Made by a program: the position numbers and the translations under genes
Part shown: positions 20,937 to 45,296 of the stretch, in pieces
Layout of the letters: every line of letters starts with the position of its first letter
Numbering within the stretch: position 1 is the stretch's first letter
Assembly: GCA_021325435.1 (NCBI GenBank)
Contig: JAJPHE010000031.1
Location: 1-64,000 of the forward strand
Direction of reading: 5' to 3'
From: Actinomycetota bacterium
GTDB taxonomy: Bacteria > Actinomycetota > Acidimicrobiia > Acidimicrobiales > JAJPHE01
Length of the DNA: 64,000 nt
Notes under the pieces: model-generated
Database searches by the model: none
What the model saw: only the letters and a program-made list of their open reading frames with translations
What the model was told of the DNA's origin: nothing

Positions 20937-21392
20937 TCAGACGCAGTCGCGGCACAGCATCCGTTTCGGATCGGCCAGCTGACTGGGGTGCTTCACCAGG
21001 AAGCAGGACTGGCAGACGAACTCGTCGGGCTGCCGGGGCTGAACCTTGGTGCCTGGCTCGCCCCGCTCTTCGGTGTCCGGGACGTCGGGCTCTTCGTCCT
21101 CGTCCTCGACGACGACGAGACGCTCCTTGAGGATCACGTCCAGGCTGGCCTCGACGTCCTCGTCGTCTAGCTCCTCGTCCTCTTCCTCTTCTTCGTCGTC
21201 GGCCTCGGCGGTGCGGACCGTGCCTTCTTCCTCGTCCTCCTCGTCCTCGTCGGCGAGCTCGTCGTCCTCGGACTCGTCGATCAGATCGTCGTCGGCGAAG
21301 TCCTCCAGCTCCTCGTCATCGAGGTCCTCGGGCTCCTCGAGGTCCTCTGGCTCTTCCTCCTCGTCGATCTCGTCGTCGAGGTCGTCCGCCAT
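20937..21392 (-). CDS. DUF4193-like acidic protein with C-terminal zinc-ribbon-like motif
   Basis: Long Glu/Asp stretch then DEFVCQSCFLVKHPSQLADPKRMLCRDCV. Confidence 0.75.
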   Translation of the reverse strand: MADDLDDEIDEEEEPEDLEEPEDLDDEELEDFADDDLIDESEDDELADEDEEDEEEGTVRTAEADDEEEEEDEELDDEDVEASLDVILKERLVVVEDEDEEPDVPDTEERGEPGTKVQPRQPDEFVCQSCFLVKHPSQLADPKRMLCRDCV

Positions 21393-21539
21393 CGTTCCGT
21401 CCTTGGGGGGGTGGTCGAATGCCGGCGGAGCATACAGGCCGCCCGGAGCGATTCAGAACGGAGTCAAGAGGGAAACAGAGGGGGGACAATCGGCCCAGGA
21501 AGCCTTTGGTGCCATCCGGTAGCCCGCACTGGTCTCGGC

Positions 21540-21739
21540 CGACCTGAGGGGTTATTGGGACGTTCTCTACTTGGCTCCCTGGACCGACGGTTCCCTCCTC
21601 AAGGCCCCTCCCGCCGGGCGGGTCCCCTCCCAGAGACGCCGGGCCGTGTACGGCCGAGACCGAGGCTCGGGGCTTCTCGGGACCCGCCGATTTTGCGGGT
21701 CTGGTCGCCGGCCGTCAATAGAGAAAGCCCCGATTTTTT
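21540..21739 (+). ncRNA. Candidate structured RNA with intrinsic terminator (5' end unknown)
   Basis: CGGGGCTTCTC(21668-21678) pairs with GAGAAAGCCCCG(21721-21732), followed by ATTTTTT; nested GACCCGC/GCGGGTC; upstream GGCCG-tgta-CGGCC hairpin; no plus-strand CDS upstream. Confidence 0.4.
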
Positions 21740-21798
21740 ACGGAGTTTTCGCGCTGGTGACCTTGCCCGGCCGGAGCCCCTCGGCTATGGGCAACCCG

Positions 21799-23403
21799 TC
21801 AACTGCCGAGGCGGCGGCTTTCGGCCCGGCGCTCGGCGTCCAGCCGCTCGAGGCCGACCGCGCCGTGATCGACGAAGCTCATGGCGGCGGCCAGCGCCCG
21901 ATGACCGGCCTGCTCGGCGATGAGCCGGTGCATCTGCTGGGCGACGGCCCGGTATTCCGGGTGGCCCTGCGGACCGGACCGCAGCTCGAGAAGGTGCATC
22001 GCCTCACGGGCGTTCATCTGCATGACGTAGCGGACCCGGTAGCCGAGGGCCACGGCGTAGGCGGCCTGGTCGGGGAACAGCTCGCGCAGGTCGTGATACA
22101 GGTCGGCCGAACGCTCCATCGACTCGGCGTACTCCTCGCCGGCACCGATGGCGGCCACGCTGTCGGGCACGGCGTAGCCGTGCTGCGGAGATAGCGACTG
22201 CCACTCGATCGTCAGCAGGCGGTGACGCTGCAGGTCTCGGAAGGCGCCGTAGTCGGACAGCACGTCGAAGCGGTAGTAGGCGCGCTCGAGCGCCCGGCCC
22301 GGCCGATGCCGGCGGTTCGACCGCTCCCCGGCGTAGGTCCGGATCACCGACAACCGGTCCTCGGCTGACATGGCCGCCACCCGGCGCGCCAGCTGGTCCT
22401 CGGGCAGCGAGGTGTAGGGGTACAGCATGGCCGCCACCACCTTCTCCTCGCCCTCGGGGTCGAAGTCGACGAGGGTGACGAGCGGGCTGTCCTCGGGCTC
22501 CTCGCCCTTCAGCATGCGCAGGGCCAGATCCTCCATGGCCTCTCGGTTGGCCCGGAGGTAGTCGGTCCAGGCCCCGCCCCTCTCGGGGACGTCGACCCGG
22601 CGCAGGAAGGAGGGGATCACCTTGCGCAGCTCTTCCAGCATCAGGTCGGCGTACAGCCGGGCCTCGGGGAGGGGGTGGGCCCTCATGCGCAGCAGGAGTT
22701 GCTCGTAGGCCTGGCCGGTGCCGTAGATGCCGACGTTCGACAGCGCCGCCGCCGGGAGCAGGCCGCGGGCCGAGTCCAGCGCCTTGGCCTTCAGCGACTG
22801 GCGGTGCACGAAATCGGAGTCGCCGGGCTGCTTGGGGTACAGCTCGGCGAAATGGGCCTGGAGCCGGGGCAGCAGGCCGGCGTATGTGTCGAACATCCGG
22901 TCCACGTCGCCGACGTAACGGGCCCCGAGGGGGGAGGCGCCCACGGCCGGGTCGCGGAAGTAGCGGTACCGCCCGTTGTCGAGGCGGGCGGCGTAGGCGA
23001 TGTAGCGGGTGGACTGCTCGAGGTAGGACATGAGCCGGCCCCACTCGAGCACCTTGGTGAGCAGGTTGGAGGCCTGCTCACAGGCCAGATGCACCCCGCC
23101 GAGCTGGGCGACCGAGTCGTCGCCGTACTCGTAGAAGACCCGGGAGTACAGGTCCTCGGCCCGGGCCATGCCCACGGTGGCGTCCACGCTCTGGTCGCCG
23201 GTGACGTCGAGGTCGCCGACGAACTCGTCGAGGAAGAGCCGGCGGAGGCTCTTGGCCGAGCGCGAGTAGCGGGCGAACAACGCCCCCTTCACCACCTCGG
23301 GCAGGTTGACCAGGGCGAAGACGGGCTGGTCCAGGTTGGTGAAGTACCGCCGGAGGATGTCCGCCTCACCGGGCGAGAACTCCTCGGCGACGTAGGGATG
23401 CAT
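21799..23403 (-). CDS. thyX: Flavin-dependent thymidylate synthase-like (ThyX family, long form)
   Basis: ALFARYSRSAKSLRRLFLDEF, MNAREAMHLLELRSGPQGHPEYRAVAQQMHRLI; ATG at 23403. Confidence 0.8.
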   Translation of the reverse strand: MHPYVAEEFSPGEADILRRYFTNLDQPVFALVNLPEVVKGALFARYSRSAKSLRRLFLDEFVGDLDVTGDQSVDATVGMARAEDLYSRVFYEYGDDSVAQLGGVHLACEQASNLLTKVLEWGRLMSYLEQSTRYIAYAARLDNGRYRYFRDPAVGASPLGARYVGDVDRMFDTYAGLLPRLQAHFAELYPKQPGDSDFVHRQSLKAKALDSARGLLPAAALSNVGIYGTGQAYEQLLLRMRAHPLPEARLYADLMLEELRKVIPSFLRRVDVPERGGAWTDYLRANREAMEDLALRMLKGEEPEDSPLVTLVDFDPEGEEKVVAAMLYPYTSLPEDQLARRVAAMSAEDRLSVIRTYAGERSNRRHRPGRALERAYYRFDVLSDYGAFRDLQRHRLLTIEWQSLSPQHGYAVPDSVAAIGAGEEYAESMERSADLYHDLRELFPDQAAYAVALGYRVRYVMQMNAREAMHLLELRSGPQGHPEYRAVAQQMHRLIAEQAGHRALAAAMSFVDHGAVGLERLDAERRAESRRLGS

Positions 23404-23450
23404 GCCCGTCGAAGAGTACGACGGGCCGCCCCCCGGCATGCGGACTCCCG

Positions 23451-24443
23451 TCAGTGTCGGATGACGATCTTGCCCAGCTGAGCGCCGGCCTGCAGCCGCT
23501 CGAGGGCTTCCGGGAAGGACCCCAGGCCGTCGACCACCTCGTCCACGACTACGGGCAGGCCCTGGGCCACCAGCGCGGTGACCTGGTCGAACTCGGCGTA
23601 GGAGCCCATGGTCGAGCCGATGATCTCGTGCTGCTTGAAGAACAGGCGGGGCAGGGAGATCTCCACTTTCGAGCCGGCGGTGCCCCCGCAGGTCACCAAC
23701 CGGCCGCCGGGGGCGAGCGCCCGCAGCGACCGGTCCCACGTCGCCGCCCCGACGTTCTCGAACACGACGTCGGCCCGGACCCCGAAATCCTGGTTGGAGT
23801 CGAGAGCCTCGTCGGCGCCGAGCTCCAGCGCCCGGGCTCGCTTGGCCTCGTCGCGAGACGTCGCCACCACCCGTGCCCCCATGGCGGCGCCGAGCACCAG
23901 GCCGGCCGAGGAGACCCCGCCCCCGACCCCCACGACCAGCAAGGTCTCGCCGGCCCGCAGGCGGGCCCGGCGCAGCATGCGCCAGGCGGTCAGGTAGGCG
24001 AGCGGGTAGGCGGCGCACTCCTCCCAGCTGCGCCCCGGCGGGCGGGGCCGGACGTTGGCCGCCGGCACCACCACCGACTCGGCGTGGGCGCCCCAGCGAT
24101 GCTCCCCGAGAATGCCGAAGTCGGCGCACAGCGGCGATTCTCCCGACAGGCAGACCGGGCAGCTCCGGCAGGACACCGCCGGGTTGACGACGACCTCGTC
24201 ACCGACCGAAACGTCCTCGACGGCCTCCCCTACCGCCTCGACCACCCCGGCGGCGTCCGCCCCCGGCACGTGGGGCACGTGCGGTCGGGGCATCCCCCTG
24301 GTCACCCACAGGTCCATGTGGTTGAGGGCGCTGGCCACCACCCGCACGGCGACCTGGCCGGGGTCGGGGTCGGGGAGGTCGATGGTGCCGAAGCGGTAGT
24401 CCCCGGGGGACTCGTCGAGGATCCAGGACTTCACGCCGGCCAA
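23451..24443 (-). CDS. Zinc-binding dehydrogenase (MDR/quinone oxidoreductase-like)
   Basis: VPHVPGADAAGVVEAVGEAVEDVSVGDEVVVNP, CRSCPVCLSGESPLC, LLVVGVGGGVSSAGLVLGAAMGARVVATS. Confidence 0.92.
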   Translation of the reverse strand: MAGVKSWILDESPGDYRFGTIDLPDPDPGQVAVRVVASALNHMDLWVTRGMPRPHVPHVPGADAAGVVEAVGEAVEDVSVGDEVVVNPAVSCRSCPVCLSGESPLCADFGILGEHRWGAHAESVVVPAANVRPRPPGRSWEECAAYPLAYLTAWRMLRRARLRAGETLLVVGVGGGVSSAGLVLGAAMGARVVATSRDEAKRARALELGADEALDSNQDFGVRADVVFENVGAATWDRSLRALAPGGRLVTCGGTAGSKVEISLPRLFFKQHEIIGSTMGSYAEFDQVTALVAQGLPVVVDEVVDGLGSFPEALERLQAGAQLGKIVIRH

Positions 24444-44097: not shown

Positions 44098-45296
44098 GCG
44101 AGGGTCGCCGGCCGCCCGCCTTCGCCGCCGCCCTCTCCGAGCATCCCGTCACCGCCCACGCCACGGGCGAGGTGGTGGGCCAGGTGCTCGAGACGATGGG
44201 CGACCGTCCCGACCTGGCCCTGCTGTTTGTCACGCCTCCCCACGCCGGAGCCCTAGAAGACGCCGCCGCCGCCGTGCGGGCGACCCTCGCTCCCACCGTG
44301 CTGGTGGGCTGTGCCGCCGAGTCGGTCGCCGGGCCCCGCCGTGAGGTCGAACAGGCCGCGGCCGTCTCCTTGTGGGCAGCCCGGTTGGGTCGGGTCCGCG
44401 CCGTCGAGCTCACCTGCCCACCGGTGGGAGACGATCCGGACCCGATCGGCGGATGGCCCACCGACCTCGATTTCGTGCCGGGGGCCCTGATCCTTCTCGC
44501 CGACCCCTACAGCTTCGACGCCGACCGCTTTTTTGCGTGGCTCCTCGACCGCCATCCGGGGCTGCCGGTCATCGGTGGCATGGCTTCGGCCGCCCGCGGC
44601 CCAGGAGGCAACCGACTGACCGTGGACGGTCGCATGAGGACCGCCGGCGCCGTGGGGGCGCTGCTGCCGGCCGCGGTGCCCGTCGCCACGGTCGTGTCGC
44701 AGGGGTGCCGGCCCATCGGCCAGCCGTGGGCGGTCACCCGCGCAGAACGCAACGTGGTCTACGAGCTGGCGGGACGACCGGCGATGGAGCGGCTCCTCGA
44801 AGTGGCCGAGCACGACCTCGGCCCCGAAGAGGTGTCGGTCATCAACCAGGGCGGCCTCCACCTCGGACGGGTGATCGACGAGCACAAGGCCGACTTCTCG
44901 CGGGGTGACTTCCTCGTGCGCAACGTCCTCGGGGCCGACCGGGAGGTAGGAGCCATCGCCGTCAACGACATGGTCGACGTCGGCACCACGGTGCAGTTCC
45001 ACCTGCGTGACGCCTCCACCGCCGACGAGGACCTGCGTGCGCTCCTGGCCTCCCGCCGGGCCCAGGCGGCTCTGCTGTTCACGTGCAACGGGCGGGGCAC
45101 CCGGCTGTTCCGTCGTCCTGACCACGATGCCGACGTCCTCGCTGATGCGCTCGACGAAGCTCCGGTCGCCGGTTTCTTCGCTGCCGGGGAATTCGGACCG
45201 GTCGGGGGACACAACTTCGTCCACGGCTTCACCGCCTCCATCGCCCTGTTCGGCGACGGTCACGGGGTGGGCACCCTGGGTAGGGTTTCCCCATGA
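44085..45296 (+). CDS. FIST N/C domain signal-transduction protein
   Basis: DLALLFVTPPHAGALEDAAAAVRATLAPTVLVGCAAESVAG... ALLFTCNGRGTRLF, FFAAGEFGPVGGHNFVHGFTASIALF. Confidence 0.9.
   Translation: MGGLSEGRRPPAFAAALSEHPVTAHATGEVVGQVLETMGDRPDLALLFVTPPHAGALEDAAAAVRATLAPTVLVGCAAESVAGPRREVEQAAAVSLWAARLGRVRAVELTCPPVGDDPDPIGGWPTDLDFVPGALILLADPYSFDADRFFAWLLDRHPGLPVIGGMASAARGPGGNRLTVDGRMRTAGAVGALLPAAVPVATVVSQGCRPIGQPWAVTRAERNVVYELAGRPAMERLLEVAEHDLGPEEVSVINQGGLHLGRVIDEHKADFSRGDFLVRNVLGADREVGAIAVNDMVDVGTTVQFHLRDASTADEDLRALLASRRAQAALLFTCNGRGTRLFRRPDHDADVLADALDEAPVAGFFAAGEFGPVGGHNFVHGFTASIALFGDGHGVGTLGRVSP

Follow-up and report, generated by a model that had tools for sequence, protein, structure and literature searches.

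The intergenic region between a ThyX-like gene (right) and a DUF4193 gene (left) in the analysed window (the whole 64-kb stretch of DNA) contains a plus-strand hairpin with a T-run directly after it, and raises the question of whether an RNA is encoded here, on which strand it lies and to which kind it belongs. The original prediction had interpreted hairpin and T-run as the intrinsic terminator of an unrecognised plus-strand small RNA situated between two minus-strand genes. Its observations on the letters were correct: both flanking genes are minus-strand genes, CGGGGCTTCTC (21668-21678) pairs with GAGAAAGCCCCG (21721-21732) around the nested GACCCGC (21681-21687)/GCGGGTC (21695-21701), and TTTTTT is then present at 21734-21739. 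Such a T-run is indeed rare, the plus strand of the window containing two T6 (the other at 44529) and no A6. The 83-nt hairpin was moderately more stable than shuffled sequences (z = -2.14; 4 of 200 shuffles equally stable), and the whole plus strand of 21530-21745 (216 nt) was no more stable than its shuffles (z = -0.83; 40/200). The site was unlisted in a simple terminator scan, its loop exceeding what the scan allows, and a search for tRNA and tmRNA found none.

Table 1. Features of the locus, with positions in the 64-kb window and the basis of each assignment.
Feature	Position	Strand	Basis or remark
ThyX-like gene, upstream, co-directional (start putative)	21799-23460	-	Thy1, Pfam PF02511, E 8e-39
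Hairpin and T-run of the original prediction	21668-21739	+	spans minus-strand promoter and first bases of the RNA
-35 box TTGACG	21713-21718	-	TTGACA/TTGACG at equivalent place in most homologs
-10 box CAAAAT	21690-21695	-	17 nt from -35 box; weak
Predicted small RNA transcript, ~200 nt	21485-21683	-	promoter placement and conserved core; ends inferred
Helix P1 5' arm, GGUCCAGGGAGCC	21573-21585	-	covariation
Internal loop 5' side, AAGUAGAGAAC	21562-21572	-	near-invariant columns in alignments A2 and A3
Helix P2 5' arm, GUCC	21558-21561	-	covariation; variable apical hairpin follows
Helix P2 3' arm, GGAU	21514-21517	-	covariation; last pair G.U on minus strand
Internal loop 3' side, GGCACCAAA	21505-21513	-	near-invariant columns in alignments A2 and A3
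Helix P1 3' arm, GGCUUCCUGGGCC	21492-21504	-	covariation
Possible -10 box TATGCT of DUF4193 gene, downstream of RNA	21429-21434	-	by eye, unscored
DUF4193 gene, downstream, co-directional	20937-21392	-	Pfam PF13834, E 1e-9

Covariation and strand assignment

A DNA search with positions 21400-21760 yielded matches in 11 of 59 genomes (the own genome included, i.e. 10 others), which fell in 21480-21614 and mostly to the left of the quoted hairpin. When aligned, these matches revealed a helix with compensatory changes that encloses both a near-invariant loop and a second helix. The covariance check proposed for the plus-strand structure did identify covarying helices; they are, however, located further left, at 21492-21585, and belong to the minus strand (see Table 1). 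In alignment A2, 97.4% of the cells were paired and 15 of the 17 pairs had both-sided changes; the covariation score was reached by no shuffle, and sliding the partner by one base halved the pairing. With more distant lineages added (alignment A3), 94.0% of the cells were paired and 14 of 17 pairs displayed compensatory changes, both these values and the strand counts given below being derived from sequences related by descent and not from independent events. Helix P1 comprises 13 pairs, 11 of which exhibited both-sided changes, helix P2 is short (4-nt arms), and the region 5' of P1 varies among lineages. Judged by these alignments, the locus holds a structured RNA on the minus strand with its core at 21492-21585.

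A G.U pair tolerated in a helix on one strand generally reads as an A.C mismatch on the other strand. Read as minus strand, P1 and P2 contained G.U in 110 versus A.C in 11 cells (58 sequences), and the broader A3 set (22 rows) 33 versus 9. This count and the placement of the promoter described below are two kinds of evidence that agree, and on this comparative basis the minus strand is the strand of the RNA.

Promoter and extent of the RNA

The sequence TAGTTA-N17-GTCAAG, shared by the homologs to the right of the core, is the reverse complement of a sigma-A promoter. The candidate boxes of the window (TTGACG-N17-CAAAAT, 21718-21690, minus strand) were also listed by a simple promoter scan; homologs of other classes contain TTGACA-N17/18-TACAGT, or TTGACA with TATTAT, at the same place, and most loci exhibit a full TTGACA with the -10 box 16-18 nt further on. 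Near-consensus promoters (score >=9.5) were found upstream of the minus-strand RNA in 40 of 78 loci, in comparison with 1 of 78 on the antisense strand and 3 in shuffled sequence; the best minus-strand promoter score averaged 9.3 points over the 78 loci.

The predicted 5' end would be positioned 6-7 nt past the -10 box, near 21683, and the predicted 3' end just beyond helix P1, at ~21485, where the window has no good U-run. Several lineages do possess U-runs after the core (e.g. L041, L067 and L122), which are not clearly present in the window; core hairpin and U-run would resemble an intrinsic terminator of the RNA in these lineages. About 28 nt separate the end of the promoter from the loop in L121 and L122, so that the predicted transcript there, ~85 nt, would be little more than the core hairpin. 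A variant of the RNA in L050, L114-L117 and L124 carries GGTTGCTTGGGAC or a similar sequence shortly upstream of P1 and no clear TTGACA promoter; in the genomes of handle f131, the variant of this type is the second copy per genome.

Loci of several classes (L134-L141, L143, L144, L146, L147 and L152-L159) share a palindrome similar to TGACCTGC-N16-GCAGGTCA, situated directly before the -35 box. Of nine genomes searched for its exact form, four contained it (a single time each, but twice in G554), and it is degenerate in the window, near 21755-21790. By its sequence and position, the palindrome looks like a regulator site.

The hairpin and T-run reconsidered

The hairpin together with the T-run straddles the minus-strand promoter, one arm lying upstream of the -35 box and the other just past the predicted minus-strand start, and a role as plus-strand terminator could not be upheld. 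Among the relatives in the class, read in the sense of the minus-strand RNA, 11 had only an A run, 6 only a T run and none had both: the orientation is not kept, and an A/T tract occurring in either orientation is not a conserved plus-strand terminator. An inverted repeat with different letters was recognised by eye at the matching place in L003 (CGGGGCTAC/GTAGCCCCG), the sole other homolog of the same family found in the family search, and was not seen in relatives more distant than L003. Close to the promoter, the hairpin may have a role as a DNA element.

A plus-strand small RNA ending at the T-run of 21734-21739 thus retains the hairpin, the rare T-run itself and the inverted repeat at the same place in L003 in its favour, but these are set against the A/T tract in both orientations, the restriction of the repeat to the family, the strand preference of the conserved helices (110:11 for the minus strand) and plus-side near-consensus promoters at background level (1/78); this reading is hardly credible. 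A further plus-strand reading, a multi-domain RNA with a conserved GACCTGC hairpin at its end, was also considered and rejected, since TAGTTA-N17-GTCAAG is a promoter in reversed orientation and the G.U/A.C count favours the minus strand. Taken together, the original prediction is partly supported: the intuition of an unrecognised structured small RNA at the locus was right, with covariation and no Rfam family, while its strand assignment and the role given to the quoted hairpin were in error. A clear, fully visible hairpin with a T-run can suggest the wrong strand, and counts of G.U versus A.C settle such cases.

Distribution among Actinobacteria

Of 395 genomes of the class searched with the covariance model R1, 51 had a match, as did 43 of the 297 genomes sampled from the phylum. 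Improved models raised the former number to 69 of 397 genomes, and model R3 matched 79 of the 297 sampled genomes of the phylum; the model of the RNA has 83 positions. The RNA is usually present in one copy per genome, with two copies in some genomes of f131 and others. All eight tested genomes of handle f108 (Streptomyces-like, 7-10 Mb) had one R3 match each, located between an amidohydrolase gene and a ppm1-like gene; at L164, the gene order is sRNA, ppm1-like, fxsA-like and convergent rbpA. In S. coelicolor, ppm1 is SCO1423, with SCO1422 in its neighbourhood (PMC5882110, PMC10433416). In consequence of the matching ppm1 (SCO1423)/SCO1422 neighbourhood, we take the f108 genomes to be Streptomyces, and the S. 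coelicolor homolog should adjoin SCO1423, not SCO1434. Several lineages had no detectable copy, e.g. 0 of 8 f113 genomes, which appear to be Mycobacterium-like.

A pattern scan of named genomes matched only MAGs labelled Actinomycetota, Actinobacteria, Acidimicrobiales and Acidimicrobiaceae, and one Dormibacter contig; the latter match reads as coding sequence and was rejected as chance. As far as sequence comparison can tell, this is probably one RNA family across many lineages of Actinobacteria, overlooked and widely shared, and the RNA is far more widespread than the window alone indicated. A structured RNA shared by several classes within one phylum, Streptomyces-like genomes among them, yet missing from Rfam, is rare. 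It is also a defined target in tractable organisms: with the 83-position model, the promoter and the near-invariant loop at hand, the partner is directly searchable.

Stand-alone RNA or leader

The downstream gene differs by lineage, encoding DUF4193, an MlaF-like ABC ATPase, a CrtI-like protein, lnt or ppm1, and at L057, L061, L111-L113, L119 and L129 the gene 3' of the RNA is convergent. The acidic DUF4193 protein, which carries a C-terminal CxxC pair, is encoded next to the RNA in the window and in L166, i.e. in at least one other class. Alternatively, the RNA could be an attenuator or riboswitch in the 5' leader of the DUF4193 gene, in which P1 and the conserved loop would form a ligand-controlled terminator. 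In favour of this, DUF4193 or lnt follows in the same direction in the window and in many relatives, some lineages have a core that is at once a terminator-like hairpin, and both loop strands are nearly invariant in the manner of an aptamer. A leader would, however, need a constant co-directional gene, and the RNA was not found as the 5' UTR of a consistently co-transcribed gene; the downstream gene changes between lineages, and where it is convergent, nothing would be regulated in cis. In addition, separate boxes resembling a -10 element (TATACT/TACAAT, by eye) precede the downstream gene in several homologs, similar to the possible box in the window. The leader explanation is therefore highly doubtful, and a stand-alone sRNA fits better, its own promoter and the covarying structure being located on the same strand. 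We consider it very likely, on the evidence of the alignments and promoter sequences, that the locus represents a family of stand-alone minus-strand sRNAs.

Possible function

The stand-alone sRNA would be transcribed from its own sigma-A-type promoter on the minus strand, the two covarying helices would hold the near-invariant internal loop rigid, and, in the manner of 6S, Ms1 or CsrB-type RNAs, this loop would be offered in trans to a protein. The near-invariant loop between covarying helices, in combination with the housekeeping-type promoter and the usually single copy, suggests an RNA that binds a constant partner. We tentatively propose that this partner, most likely a protein, is bound via the conserved loop; it could instead be a small molecule or another RNA. 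Most stand-alone bacterial sRNAs act by base-pairing, and the 3' loop side is C-rich, often GGCCCCAAMGG, as might be expected of an antisense sRNA that binds target mRNAs through its loop strands. Seeds are, however, usually located on one exposed strand, whereas both loop sides are almost invariant across classes, and the antisense explanation appears somewhat unlikely.

More specifically, the RNA might replace 6S or Ms1 by binding RNA polymerase and regulating transcription. Its helix, an internal bubble of roughly symmetric shape and a further helix form a succession reminiscent of an open promoter, neither the window nor 60 genomes of the class gave a match to 6S RNA (RF00013), which was detected in controls such as E. 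coli and B. subtilis, and two actinomycete loci adjoin the lnt/ppm1/fxsA/rbpA cluster: in L167, the sRNA is followed by lnt/ppm1/fxsA with convergent rbpA, the gene of an RNA-polymerase-binding protein, adjoining. This linkage to rbpA is, on the other hand, confined to these two loci (L164 and L167), and the bubble sequence is near-invariant. Known 6S RNAs have 150-210 nt (PMC4191392), in comparison with predicted lengths, from inferred ends, of ~200 nt in the window and only ~85 nt in L121/L122, and Streptomyces already has an Ms1, scr3559 (PMC9130861). Moreover, an RNA polymerase RIP-seq study of S. coelicolor highlights in its main text scr3559 and scr0792, and this main text is without SCO142 or scr142 terms (PMC11077062); the locus being unnamed there, RNA polymerase as partner is weakened to that extent. 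Overall, a function as substitute of 6S/Ms1 is distinctly unlikely. The most far-reaching reading would combine several of these elements: a core RNA of Actinobacteria, missed by the catalogues because it is short and GC-rich, would bind one conserved partner (protein or metabolite) with its invariant loop, would be controlled by a dedicated regulator at the promoter palindrome and may substitute for a general regulator, for instance 6S. As a whole, this combination is unlikely.

Comparison with known RNA families

The Rfam search recommended by the original prediction bore out its statement that the class was unrecognised: with Rfam 15 at the gathering threshold and on both strands, there was no match in the window or in 36 homologous loci, and scans with permissive E-values (window core and 10 loci) gave implausible weak hits only. 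6S RNA resembles the new RNA in its order of helix, central bubble and helix and as a single-copy stand-alone gene; the new RNA differs by a core predicted to be shorter and by its conserved loop sequence. Ms1 (MTS2823, scr3559), the RNA-polymerase-binding sRNA of Actinobacteria, is likewise structured and stand-alone, has a promoter of its own and contains a hairpin with internal bubble. It has ~300 nt in M. smegmatis, is located beside a HAD hydrolase gene, and lies in Streptomyces between SCO3558 and SCO3559 (PMC9130861, PMC4191392). In contrast, the new RNA has neither this synteny nor an Rfam match and is a separate RNA in Streptomyces: its neighbours are ThyX, amidohydrolase, DUF4193, lnt, ppm1 and dapA-like genes, and no HAD-IB hydrolase gene was among them.

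6C RNA (RF01066) is a short actinobacterial sRNA as well, but an identity was rejected: RF01066 had no match in the window and matched elsewhere, largely in other genomes, and G554 carries both RNAs at separate places. The CoRP RNA of Corynebacterium, also a recently found structured RNA of Actinobacteria, differs by its length of 516 nt, the tRNA genes on either side and its restriction to one genus (PMC11077062). The Streptomyces sRNAs of the scr1434 type are stable stem-loop sRNAs known from RNA-seq, and scr1434 has a C-rich loop (PMC3765725); the Streptomyces homolog of the new RNA, in contrast, adjoins ppm1. The texts consulted describe no named sRNA at SCO1422-1424, and descriptions of the loop sequence or of DUF4193 in connection with an sRNA were not found. 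Transcripts of homologs may have been observed earlier but not identified as members of a single family. The RNA is new as a family, whereas its general kind, the structured actinobacterial sRNA, is already known.
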